From contig CALSRS010000001.1 of assembly GCA_943788815.1 (NCBI GenBank), forward strand, positions 1,239,501-1,303,500: a DNA stretch of 64,000 nucleotides. Direction: 5' to 3'. Of this stretch, positions 1 through 5,234 are shown one piece after another; positions within the stretch are counted from its first letter, which is position 1; every line of letters starts with the position of its first letter. The position numbers were made by a program, and so were the translations under genes. The notes below the pieces were generated by a model, which had not been told where the DNA came from, searched no databases, and saw only the letters and a program-made list of their open reading frames with translations. The DNA is from an uncultured Gammaproteobacteria bacterium (GTDB lineage: Bacteria > Pseudomonadota > Gammaproteobacteria > Eutrophobiales > Eutrophobiaceae).

Positions 1-1215
1 CTAACGGCAATAATTCTAACTGTCGGGGCATTTTTATTAATCAGGATATTAAACCACTTTCGAGCGAGGGTCGGTTTTGCATTTCGGTTCGGTCTTGCAA
101 ATGTAGTGAGAAGGGCAAATTTGAGTATTGCTCAGATTCTGGGGATAGGACTGGGGATTATGGTCATGCTGTTATTAACCCTGGTGAGAACAGACCTTCT
201 GGACTCCTGGCGAGACCGAATTCCAGATGGCACGCCAAATTATTTTCTGATAAATATTCAAGATACCGATGTTCCACAGGTTCAGGCATTTCTGGGTAAT
301 GAAAATCAAACAAGCACCGCCCTGTATCCAATGATAAGAGGAAGATTATCTGCTATTAATAATGAGAAAATAGTGGAAGAAAACTTCACTACGGCTGAAG
401 CCAGGAGGTGGGCCAGACGAGCGTATAATCTTTCTTTTTCACAAGATTTACCAAGCGCCAATACCCTAACAGCAGGGGAATGGTGGGACATCGAAAACAC
501 AGACACAAATCAGTGGTCCCTGGAAGAAGAATTTGCCAATGAATTAGGTGTAACACTCAATGATACACTTACGTTTATGGTCGCGGGTAAGGAAGTGAGC
601 GGCAGGATTTCCAGCCTGCGAAAGGTAGACTGGGACTCATTTAACGTAAATTTCTTTGTCCTCGCCAGCCCGAGTTTGTTGGATGCTTATCCAGCCAGTT
701 ATGTAACCAGTTTTTATCTTCCTGCTGAAAAGAAAAATATTATAATTGATCTGGTTAAACGTTTTCCCAGTGTTACAGTTTTTGATGTAGATGCTCTGAT
801 TCGCGAAGTTAGAAAAATCATGGACCAGGTGGTATCAACAGTTGAATTTGTGTTTGGGTTTACTATCCTTGCAGGGATAGTTGTCTTAATTTCTGCGCTA
901 CAGACTACGCACTCAGAGCGTAGTTATGAGTCTGCACTTCTTAGCAGTATAGGTGCATCAAGAAGGCAAATCAGATTGGGTTTAATTATGGAGTTTTTAT
1001 GCATCGGGCTCATCGCAGGATTTCTCGCGGCCTTATCAGCCTCTTTCGTTGAACTACTACTGGCAAAATTTGTGTTTAATCTGGATGTGACTATCGATTA
1101 CCGTTTGTGGATTATCGCGCCTGTCATTTGTACAGCTATCATTATTACTGTAGGTCTGGCGGGTACCCGACGTGTATTATATACGCCACCTATACAGGCT
1201 CTTAAAGAATTCTAA
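1..1215 (+). CDS. ABC transporter permease, FtsX-like (YbbP type), 5' end outside window
   Basis: This is the C-terminal 404 codons of an inner-membrane permease. The frame is open from base 1, so the GTG at 106 is only an internal codon and the true start lies left of the window. A membrane segment near IAQILGIGLGIMVMLLLTLV is followed by a periplasmic region of about 200 residues. Three closing membrane helices follow, with the FtsX/MacB signature SYESALLSSIGASRRQI just before the second of them. This arrangement and the PPIQALKEF tail resemble YbbP-type permeases, which are predicted to work with a separate ATPase on lipids or lipoproteins. The partner is not visible here, so the substrate is unknown. 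A small unknown gene follows after 4 bp. Confidence 0.8.
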   Translation, partial: LTAIILTVGAFLLIRILNHFRARVGFAFRFGLANVVRRANLSIAQILGIGLGIMVMLLLTLVRTDLLDSWRDRIPDGTPNYFLINIQDTDVPQVQAFLGNENQTSTALYPMIRGRLSAINNEKIVEENFTTAEARRWARRAYNLSFSQDLPSANTLTAGEWWDIENTDTNQWSLEEEFANELGVTLNDTLTFMVAGKEVSGRISSLRKVDWDSFNVNFFVLASPSLLDAYPASYVTSFYLPAEKKNIIIDLVKRFPSVTVFDVDALIREVRKIMDQVVSTVEFVFGFTILAGIVVLISALQTTHSERSYESALLSSIGASRRQIRLGLIMEFLCIGLIAGFLAALSASFVELLLAKFVFNLDVTIDYRLWIIAPVICTAIIITVGLAGTRRVLYTPPIQALKEF

Positions 1216-1219
1216 TGTA

Positions 1220-1519
1220 ATGCAAAACGTACATTTTGACAGTCTAAGGGTTATGGTGACCGGATATATCAAAACCATCGATAAAAATGATCCAGAATCC
1301 CATTCAACAGCGTGGTTTTTATTAAAGTATTTAAAACGAATTCAAAAAAAAACTGAACCACCGGCCAGCACAGGACAGGTTGAGGGCACTATGCGTTCTA
1401 TGGTCCGGTTTTATGTAGATAATATAGATGAAAAATCAGAATTAGGTGATATCTGTATTAAAATTTACAACGAATACCGTAAGGTACTGAGAGAACATCA
1501 GTCAAAGAATTCAAACTGA
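1220..1519 (+). CDS. Hypothetical small cytosolic protein (99 aa)
   Basis: I do not recognise this protein. The frame extends upstream into the permease gene, but the ATG at 1220 (MQNVHFDSLRV) is the sensible start because it follows the permease stop by 4 bp. No signal peptide or membrane segment is visible. The sequence is charged and probably mostly helical (WFLLKYLKRIQKK and IYNEYRKVLREHQ). It sits in the same direction between the permease and ferrochelatase, so it may share their transcript. No strong Shine-Dalgarno is visible, so it may be translated by coupling to the permease stop. Confidence 0.55.
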   Translation: MQNVHFDSLRVMVTGYIKTIDKNDPESHSTAWFLLKYLKRIQKKTEPPASTGQVEGTMRSMVRFYVDNIDEKSELGDICIKIYNEYRKVLREHQSKNSN

Positions 1520-1580: not shown

Positions 1581-2666
1581 ATGCCTCAATTTAAAAACAG
1601 CTCAAAAATACCACATGATTCAAAACCACTAACGGGCATACTCCTCACAAACCTGGGCTCCCCCGATTCACCAACGACCGGGAGTATCAGGCGATACCTT
1701 GCTGAATTTTTAAATGATATTCGTGTGATAGAAACACCTCGTATAATCTGGTGGCCAATTCTGTATGGAATCATACTCACGTTAAGACCCAGACGTTTGG
1801 CACATGCTTATGCAAAAATCTGGACAAACGAAGGGTCTCCATTAACAGTTAATCTGCAAAAACAAGCCGAGGCTATTGAAAAGAATCTCTCTGAGTCACT
1901 GAATTATCCTTTTAAAATTGAAATTGCTATGCGGTATGGTAATCCGTCCATCAAGTCGGCGTTACAGAAGCTACGTGAAGCAAACGTACAAAGATTATTA
2001 GTTTTCCCACTATATCCTCACTATTCGGCTACCACCACAGCCTCAACATTTGATGCTGTCAGTAAAGAGCTTCAATCCTGGCGATGGATCCCGGAAGTCA
2101 GGTTTATAAATCATTATCACGACAACGCTGGTTTTATCTCAGCATTAGCACAAAGCATCAAATCAGAATGGGACAAAAATGGCCAACCGGAAAAATTATT
2201 ATTTTCGTTCCATGGCCTACCAAAAAAATATTTTGAATCAGGGGATCCTTATTTTTGCGAATGTCAAAAAACTGCACGCCTGGTAGCGGAAAAGCTGGCA
2301 CTGGATGATTCACTCTGGTCTGTCGCCTTTCAATCCAGATTTGGACCTATGGAATGGTTGCAACCATATACTGATGTCGTGTTGGAAGATTGGGCCAATA
2401 ATGGGATAACAAATGTTAATGTTATCTGCCCCGGATTTTCTGCCGACTGTCTTGAGACCCTCGAAGAGATACAGATACAGTATCGAACTCGTTATCTGAA
2501 CGCAGGAGGCAAAAAATTCACCTATATTCCTGCCCTCAATGACAGTAAAAGTCACATTGATGCCTTAAGCTCTATAATTATCCAACATTGTAGTGGGTGG
2601 GAAGAATTGGTATGGAACAATAAGCAGATTAAAGACAGGGTGGAATTGCTTAACCGCATTGAATAA
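1581..2666 (+). CDS. hemH: Ferrochelatase (protoheme ferro-lyase)
   Basis: This enzyme inserts ferrous iron into protoporphyrin IX, the last step of heme synthesis, at the cytoplasmic face of the inner membrane. The 361-residue length and the motifs GILLTNLGSPDSP, FSFHGLPKKYFESGDPY and CPGFSADCLETLEEI are typical of the family. H211 and E292 correspond to the catalytic histidine and glutamate. The ATG at 1581 follows an AAGGA ribosome-binding site. The gene is convergent with the CULT-domain gene, whose stop lies 1 bp away. Heme demand in this organism is supported by the ccm operon and the cytochrome domain elsewhere in the window. Confidence 0.96.
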   Translation: MPQFKNSSKIPHDSKPLTGILLTNLGSPDSPTTGSIRRYLAEFLNDIRVIETPRIIWWPILYGIILTLRPRRLAHAYAKIWTNEGSPLTVNLQKQAEAIEKNLSESLNYPFKIEIAMRYGNPSIKSALQKLREANVQRLLVFPLYPHYSATTTASTFDAVSKELQSWRWIPEVRFINHYHDNAGFISALAQSIKSEWDKNGQPEKLLFSFHGLPKKYFESGDPYFCECQKTARLVAEKLALDDSLWSVAFQSRFGPMEWLQPYTDVVLEDWANNGITNVNVICPGFSADCLETLEEIQIQYRTRYLNAGGKKFTYIPALNDSKSHIDALSSIIIQHCSGWEELVWNNKQIKDRVELLNRIE

Positions 2667-2667
2667 A

Positions 2668-3102
2668 TTATTCGAACAGCTGTTCAATAATATGTCCCTT
2701 TATTAATCCATAGAATCGAGTATCACCTTTGAAAAACCAACCAAGGTGTTCAGAACATTTTTCACAAAATGCCATCTGCCAAAGATAGCCACTAAACCAA
2801 CTATATTCTGCGCTTGGTTCACCGGTAACTACGCATCCCGGAGCCCTGGAATAGCATTCGAATTGATAGGCAAAACCAGCTGGATTGATCTTGCTGTGGA
2901 TATTGCTACCTAGCACAAAAACCAGGTCATTACGGGACGTAATAATTGATTGGCACTGGCGGCATATCATTTTTTTTCCTGTGCCTGGTACGGCTGACTC
3001 ATCTTCATGTTTATTGACGATCTTAAAATCACTAAAAGATTTGTCCAGACATAGTGAGGGCAAGTCTCTGTTTTCTATAAATTTATCTTGTATCAGTACC
3101 AT
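2668..3102 (-). CDS. Cereblon-like CULT-domain protein (single domain, 144 aa)
   Basis: The C-terminal two thirds match the CULT domain, the thalidomide- and uracil-binding fold of human cereblon, which is also known from small bacterial proteins such as the Magnetospirillum one. C47-x2-C50 and C113-x2-C116 form the zinc site. Three aromatic-cage tryptophans are at W102, W108 and W122, with the same 6 and 14 residue spacings as W380, W386 and W400 of human cereblon. The segment SAEYSWFSGYLWQMAFCEKC carries the hallmark. The first 45 residues are unrelated to a LON domain, so this is the stand-alone bacterial form and presumably cytosolic. Its natural ligand is unknown. It is convergent with hemH and divergent from slt. 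Confidence 0.88.
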   Translation of the reverse strand: MVLIQDKFIENRDLPSLCLDKSFSDFKIVNKHEDESAVPGTGKKMICRQCQSIITSRNDLVFVLGSNIHSKINPAGFAYQFECYSRAPGCVVTGEPSAEYSWFSGYLWQMAFCEKCSEHLGWFFKGDTRFYGLIKGHIIEQLFE

Positions 3103-3224: not shown

Positions 3225-5234
3225 TTGAACATAAAAACGACTGAAAACTCTTTAATTATTCGTCTAAGCATTCGTATTTTAATGCTGGTGTTGTTATGGA
3301 CATCCTATCTCCTGCCTGTCTACGCCCAACAGGACATTGAGCAGCAACGCAATCAATATCTACAGGCACAAAAAGCATTGAATGCTGGTGAGATTTCAAG
3401 CTTTAAAAAACTAACCGGTGGTTTAATTGAATATCCCTTATATCCTTACCTTATCTATAATTACATCAGCCCTCGCATCTCCAGCATTGATAAAGAGGAC
3501 ATTATTCAGTTCCTGGATAAATACAGCGACCTGCCAGTTGCTAATGATTTAAGAAAACGCTGGTTACGCTATCTAGCACGTAGTGCTCAATGGCAAATTT
3601 TTATTGAAAACTACTTACCTCTAAATGACACTGAACTTCAGTGTTACCAATTACTCGCAAGAATAAAGACTGATAATCAGGCATATCTATTAGAAGATGC
3701 CCGCTCTGTCTGGCTTGCAGGAAAATCACAACCTGAAATTTGCGATCCGGCATTCGCACTCTTATACAATAGTGATCTGATGACTCCCGAGTTAATCTGG
3801 GAGCGCATCAGGCTTTCAATGAAAAATAATGAAACAAGTCTTGCTAAATATTTATCCGGGAAATTAAGTGAGCCTGATCAGACATGGGTTAATAGATGGA
3901 TATCCACCTATCGTAACCCTGCAAGCGGCACAAGGAATCCACAATACGAAGATATACCTATCGCACGAGATATTCTTGCCCATGGAATGAGGCGACTTGC
4001 TTCATCAAATATTGATACGGCAATCAATCGGTGGGATAGCCTGAAATCAAATTACGCATTTAACGATAAACAGATAGTAGAAATTGAGCGCACATTAGCG
4101 ATACGATCTGTAATAGGAAAACATCCCAGGTCCCAGGAACTGCTGGATGCCATTGATAACCAGCATGTAGACGAGACCATATTTCACTGGCGACTTAAAG
4201 ATGCACTCCAAAATAAAGATTGGCAGGCATTAATCAAATGGACAGAGGGAGAAGCTCCCGATGAGGCTATCAAGCTGAGATGGCAGTACTGGCGTGCTCG
4301 TGCATTAGAGCAGACAGGCGATAAGACTGAATCTGAAATTATCTACCAAAAGCTTGCCGGCGAAAGAGATTATTATGGTTTCCTTTCAGCAGACAGAATC
4401 ATGGCAGACTATACGATGGATCACCGTTCTCTTCCTGAAGACCTGGAAACCTGGAATGAGGTCTCTGCCCAACCTGGCGTTAAAAGAGCACGTGAATTGT
4501 TCTATATAGGAAATAAATATTTCGCAAGACGAGAATGGAATACAGTTGTTAGCAAGCAGTCAAAATATGAACTTCAGGTAGCAGCAATGATTGCATCAAA
4601 CTGGGGCTGGCATGACAGAACCATTCTTACATTGGGAAAAGCACAATCATATGATGATTTGATTCTAAGATTTCCTGTTGTATTTCAAGATCAGATGAAA
4701 AAATATTCTGAAATGCGTGGTCTGGATCTTGGATGGATATATGCATTAACCAGGGCAGAAAGTGCGTTCATGTCTGATGCAAGATCACCTTCAGGTGCTC
4801 TTGGATTGATGCAGATTATGCCTGCAACCGGAAGAGAAACAGCAAAGGCAATTAAATTTAGAACATATGAAAACCGATATCTATTGGAACCAGACAAAAA
4901 TATTACGATTGGCACAGCTTATTTAAAGAAGGTATATGATCGTTTCAATAGCGTAATACTGGCGACTGCCTCTTATAATGCTGGTCCTAACGCGGTTGCG
5001 AGATGGTTGCCTGTGGACGGATGTGTAGAACCGGATATATGGGTTGAACAAATACCTTATAATGAAACCAGGAAGTACGTCGCCAGAATATTGTTTTTTG
5101 CCACAATTTATGACTGGCGATTAAATAATCAAATTACTAGAATTAACCAGCGCATGACAACTGTATCGCCAAAGGCGCAATTAGCGTCTTCGGGATTATC
5201 GTGTCTCGCATCTGAAAATATTTCAGGACTATAA
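3225..5234 (+). CDS. slt: Soluble lytic murein transglycosylase
   Basis: This is a periplasmic exo-lytic transglycosylase that cleaves peptidoglycan between MurNAc and GlcNAc to give 1,6-anhydro ends. A signal peptide (residues about 12-35, ending PVYAQQ) is followed by a long helical superhelix typical of Slt70, then the SLT catalytic domain. The catalytic glutamate is E512 in RAESAF, followed by SPSGALGLMQIMPATG and later ATASYNAGPNAV. Length (669 aa) is near that of Slt70. The start is TTG at 3225, since no ATG or GTG upstream is in frame, and a GGGG run lies about 10 bp before it. An in-frame ATG within the signal peptide is an alternative. The next gene begins 4 bp after the stop. Confidence 0.94.
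   Translation: MNIKTTENSLIIRLSIRILMLVLLWTSYLLPVYAQQDIEQQRNQYLQAQKALNAGEISSFKKLTGGLIEYPLYPYLIYNYISPRISSIDKEDIIQFLDKYSDLPVANDLRKRWLRYLARSAQWQIFIENYLPLNDTELQCYQLLARIKTDNQAYLLEDARSVWLAGKSQPEICDPAFALLYNSDLMTPELIWERIRLSMKNNETSLAKYLSGKLSEPDQTWVNRWISTYRNPASGTRNPQYEDIPIARDILAHGMRRLASSNIDTAINRWDSLKSNYAFNDKQIVEIERTLAIRSVIGKHPRSQELLDAIDNQHVDETIFHWRLKDALQNKDWQALIKWTEGEAPDEAIKLRWQYWRARALEQTGDKTESEIIYQKLAGERDYYGFLSADRIMADYTMDHRSLPEDLETWNEVSAQPGVKRARELFYIGNKYFARREWNTVVSKQSKYELQVAAMIASNWGWHDRTILTLGKAQSYDDLILRFPVVFQDQMKKYSEMRGLDLGWIYALTRAESAFMSDARSPSGALGLMQIMPATGRETAKAIKFRTYENRYLLEPDKNITIGTAYLKKVYDRFNSVILATASYNAGPNAVARWLPVDGCVEPDIWVEQIPYNETRKYVARILFFATIYDWRLNNQITRINQRMTTVSPKAQLASSGLSCLASENISGL

Follow-up and report, generated by a model that had tools for sequence, protein, structure and literature searches.

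A stand-alone bacterial CULT protein related to cereblon, and its inherited gene neighbourhood in an uncultured gammaproteobacterium

What does a cereblon-type CULT domain do when it stands alone in a bacterium, and does the copy considered here depart from its family? The question is raised by a gene in a 64,000-nucleotide stretch of DNA from an uncultured gammaproteobacterium (the whole stretch is referred to below as the window), for which an initial annotation had described a stand-alone CULT protein with a complete tryptophan cage and zinc site, located beside hemH and slt. The features of the locus are as follows.

1581..2666, plus strand: hemH (ferrochelatase; PF00762, E 1.5e-118), converging with the CULT gene
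2668..3102, minus strand: CULT protein gene (P0001), 144 aa, ATG start at 3102, stop codon at 2668-2670
2971..3102, minus strand: N-terminal tail, residues 1-44, of low model confidence
2683..2973, minus strand: CULT domain, about residues 44-140, from structure match and model
2953..2964, minus strand: first zinc motif C47-x2-C50, predicted from sequence and alignment
2833..2856, minus strand: C83-x6-C90, flanking the tip (APG) of the inserted hairpin, kept in most bacterial CULT proteins
2755..2766, minus strand: second zinc motif C113-x2-C116, predicted from sequence and alignment
2737..2799, minus strand: aromatic cage stretch W102...W108...W122, from sequence and alignment
3225..5234, plus strand: slt (soluble lytic transglycosylase), diverging from the CULT gene, a conserved CULT neighbour in the order

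Domain architecture and relation to known cereblons

The window protein has Trp at positions 102, 108 and 122 and nowhere else, and its Cys residues are confined to positions 18, 47, 50, 83, 90, 113 and 116. The three Trp residues had been matched to W380, W386 and W400 of human cereblon (CRBN), which is correct at a constant offset (window residue = human number - 278), and the zinc site formed by C47, C50, C113 and C116 likewise has the Trp-to-Cys and Cys-to-Trp distances ascribed to it, giving W-x5-W-x4-C-x2-C-x5-W. A phmmer search against the PDB returned as top match MsCI4 (Magnetospirillum gryphiswaldense cereblon isoform 4, MGR_0879; E 2.5e-23), with human cereblon next (E about 6e-14). 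MsCI4, a standard surrogate in drug design, is likewise a single-domain bacterial CULT protein. No second Pfam domain was found in the window protein, NCBIfam gave no match, PHROGs gave weak matches only (best E 0.063), and no relatives were found in viral contigs, phages or plasmids.

Structure prediction from the single sequence was useless (pLDDT 33) and was replaced by an AlphaFold2 model built with A2, an alignment of 64 natural CULT homologues, which reached a mean pLDDT of 94-99 per ten-residue block across residues 41-140 and about 50-65 in residues 1-40, the N-terminal extension being modelled as disordered. In the comparison with the Magnetospirillum CULT structure that the initial annotation had proposed, the model superposed on MsCI4-thalidomide (4v2y, 4v32) at 1.2 Å over 101 residues (Z 19.4), reproducing the beta-tent fold with its inserted hairpin and keeping the cage register; the values were 1.4 Å over 102 residues for human cereblon and 1.6 Å over 102 residues for 9nr3, in which cereblon is combined with the substrate GLUL-cN. 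The MsCI4 cage is made of W79, W85 and W99 (PMC8900816), and its cage and zinc residues are in register with those of the window protein (window residue = MsCI4 number + 23; 39-42% identity in the structural alignment), which, together with the low rmsd of the model, implies that W102, W108 and W122 would form an equivalent cage; the model thus does not show the cage-less arrangement that had been named as counter-evidence.

There are also differences from the two reference proteins. At the base of the cage the window protein has F124, as human cereblon has F402, whereas MsCI4 has Y101, which adds a hydrogen bond and of which a Y101F mutant still binds (PMC8900816); among the 64 homologues this position is Phe in 51 and Tyr in 13. 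There are 46 residues ahead of the first zinc Cys in the window protein versus 23 in MsCI4, and C90 is replaced by Leu in the latter. Human cereblon has in common with the window protein the fold, the cage Trp and zinc Cys residues and the N351/P352 pair (N73/P74), but an indel places the first CxxC of the window protein two residues closer to the cage, and H353, H357 and H378 are changed to A75, Y79 and Y100, respectively. The window protein further differs from cereblon proper, in which a LON domain and a DDB1-binding region lie N-terminal of CULT: the LON search gave no match, only the 46 residues noted above precede the first zinc Cys, and the protein is without either part, so that no ubiquitin-ligase role is attributed to it. 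Its N-terminus, MVLIQDKFIENRD, is not hydrophobic as judged by eye and no secretion signal is evident on inspection; with the CULT domain alone, the protein fits the bacterial single-domain group (group I of Lupas et al. 2015).

Conservation and distribution of the CULT family

A CULT gene was found in 30 of the 53 genomes of the order and gave no match in the other 23, and the gene is therefore dispensable. For the class, profile searches recovered CULT in 29 of the 369 genomes sampled, and for the phylum sample in 21 of 398, the window's own genome being counted both times. That genome (3.23 Mb) gave this CULT match only. The alignment excludes eight other copies, as broken (L139, in genome G148), interrupted by runs of N (L040, L056), cut (L060), placed with too early a start (L048) or near-copies (L049, L054, L067). 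Ten columns are invariant across the 64 homologues (C47, C50, N73, W102, F103, W108, C113, C116, G121 and W122), and the cage and zinc spacing is kept in all 64. Homologues devoid of the Trp cage, which had been named as evidence that would speak against the assignment, are thus absent from this set, and a fully conserved cage and zinc site characterizes the family and is not a peculiarity of the window protein. The dN/dS ratio was 0.07-0.34 in nine of ten CULT pairs, those for which it was computable; the pair formed by the window gene and L032 was saturated. In the CULT gene tree the deep forks are mostly unresolved, and the tree neither establishes nor excludes that the copies within the order share one origin.

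The N-terminal extension pointed out by the initial annotation is present, but it is nothing out of the ordinary: the stretch ahead of the first zinc Cys has a family median of 38 residues and a range of 9-54, and the extension of the window protein is typical in length. Together, the sequence search, the confident model and the 64 homologues agree on a single-domain bacterial CULT protein, as first annotated, and the window gene is an ordinary member of the known stand-alone family to which Magnetospirillum MsCI4 belongs. This assignment is practically certain given the homology, the fold, the kept Trp cage and zinc Cys residues, the single-domain layout and the purifying selection acting on the family.

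Several observations were made alongside. A scan for promoters and terminators gave no signal clearly above that of shuffled sequences. C83 is found in 62 and C90 in 57 of the 64 homologues, with both in 56, and the pair flanks the tip of the inserted hairpin; human cereblon is without equivalents of both and MsCI4 without the second. A disulfide or redox role for this pair is possible. The L139 copy, situated beside TauE, was considered as a zinc-less CULT and rejected, since its CxxC is encoded in a different frame and its second motif is deleted; with its frameshift before the hairpin, it is a decaying gene or an assembly error. A CULT match in two overlapping pieces at G137:C135:3448-3767 suggests another frameshifted copy, and the one match from a contig scan with the single protein, in Lysinibacillus (L031), spans 38 codons, lacks a start codon and was taken as chance.

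Gene neighbourhood and loss of a permease partner

The position of the gene beside hemH and slt was correctly described, but the setting is inherited and not the oddity it had been implied to be: counting the window, 28 of the order's 30 loci have slt near CULT. Among the other 29 loci the usual layout is slt, encoded on the opposite strand, and then the gene for a TauE/SafE permease, a membrane transporter of the sulfite-exporter type, CULT, sometimes DUF1499, then YjbQ (UPF0047) and DUF427; the genes from TauE through DUF427 are oriented like CULT, and hemH faces them. The survey of neighbouring genes proposed at the outset revealed the permease directly upstream of CULT in 21 of the 29 order relatives, with a typical distance of 3-78 nt to the CULT start; in L051 and L057 the two genes overlap by 4 nt. 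The TauE proteins of these operons are 45-94% identical, and TauE also directly precedes CULT elsewhere in the class, in five genomes (L066, L067, L069, L076 and L088) belonging to four other families. Outside these groups the contexts differ and most CULT genes have other neighbours; L145, L148, L152 and L157, four genomes from the phylum sample, have a rhodanese gene directly after CULT. No description of a TauE-CULT operon was found in the open-access literature searched.

Nine loci of the order, including that of the window, have CULT without an adjacent TauE. Neither an orthologue of the TauE encoded in the operons (best match 30% over 95 aa) nor any UPF0047 (YjbQ) protein was found in the window's genome, and its DUF427 proteins are encoded away from the CULT locus. 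Most simply, the permease and YjbQ were lost in the window lineage while CULT was retained, and this would argue against a strict dependence of CULT on the permease. The window gene being ordinary in itself, what it adds is this conserved TauE-CULT operon together with the loss of the permease in its own lineage. The TauE/SafE partner may offer a clue to what stand-alone cereblon-like proteins naturally do in bacteria, and since lineages with and without the partner occur in one order, the question of role is testable by gene removal. A plus-strand gene at window positions 1172-1519, adjoining hemH and a gene for an FtsX-type permease, encodes a conserved protein of roughly 100 aa that occurs in nine loci of the order and has no Pfam match.

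Candidate roles of the bacterial CULT protein

C-terminal cyclic imides, the natural degron of human cereblon, arise from Asn or Gln at protein ends (PMC11974815; PMC13001092, with reference to Ichikawa 2022 and Heim 2022). Since human cereblon reads such ends, and MsCI4 binds thalidomide (Kd about 6.7 uM; PMC8900816) and has been crystallized with deoxyuridine (4v31), the bacterial protein may be a reader of cyclic-imide ends. By this analogy, the function tentatively favoured for the window protein is to capture, without catalysis, the cyclic-imide ends of damaged proteins. It would act as a cytoplasmic, zinc-stabilized binding protein, the cage of which would take a planar six- or five-membered ring presenting imide N-H and C=O, of the glutarimide, aspartimide, dihydrouracil or uracil type. 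The natural ligand would be, as for human cereblon, a C-terminal cyclic imide generated by Asn/Gln cyclization and chain breakage in ageing proteins, and, there being no ubiquitin ligase part, the bacterial CULT might label these ends, protect them or pass them on. In many relatives the gene appears placed for co-expression with the TauE/SafE permease, a partner that CULT would have outlived in the window lineage. Against this function, no physiological ligand or effector of a bacterial CULT protein was found here or in the literature searched, no protease or protein-repair gene was recognized among the annotated CULT neighbours, and the gene is dispensable within the order.

The operon suggests that CULT could instead be a small-molecule sensor or accessory of the TauE/SafE (TSUP) permease, its cage binding the transported solute or a linked cyclic metabolite. 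The recurrence of TauE directly upstream of CULT within the order and in four other families fits this proposal, as does the rhodanese gene, a sulfur-transfer function, found after CULT elsewhere. However, the TauE-CULT pair lies within one ancestral neighbourhood (slt, NAD epimerase, DUF1499, YjbQ) and is thus not independently repeated, and the loci without adjacent TauE, the missing orthologue in the window's genome and the different neighbours of most other CULT genes make a dedicated permease accessory unlikely. It would be a longer shot to propose that CULT works with TauE/SafE, in other lineages also with a rhodanese, in a system that handles sulfur or imides and in which CULT receives the cyclic ligand, the cereblon cage having arisen within a bacterial metabolite- or damage-clearance pathway.

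Binding of a nucleoside (uridine, deoxyuridine or dihydrouracil) in pyrimidine salvage or signalling is also rather improbable: the MsCI4 complex with deoxyuridine, the humanized MsCI4 with a dihydrouracil compound (9gjq) and the title of Hartmann et al. 2014, as cited in PMC4287342, speak for it, but no pyrimidine gene is present among the annotated neighbours. The kinship of the CULT fold with MsrB and formaldehyde-activating enzyme (PMC4287342) and the frequent occurrence of C83 and C90 might indicate an enzyme, yet these Cys residues flank the hairpin insert, C90 is missing from MsCI4 and seven homologues, and catalysis by CULT was not found in the literature searched, so that an enzymatic role is very improbable. 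A Yippee/Mis18-type zinc protein devoid of cage function is barely conceivable: PF03226 (Yippee-Mis18), of the same superfamily and the only Pfam label of the protein, speaks for it with 27.6 bits, just above its cut-off of 26.6, but CULT structures match far more strongly and the cage residues are invariant.

As regards capture of cyclic-imide ends, the imide is generated in humans by PIMT, a member of the PCMT family. Genes for PCMT-family methyltransferases are present in 52 of the order's 53 genomes, irrespective of whether CULT is there, and the co-occurrence of the two is therefore uninformative. The window's genome carries three such genes (PF01135; G000:C1:19367-19924, 313173-313781 and 324903-325469), two of which are about 11 kb apart.
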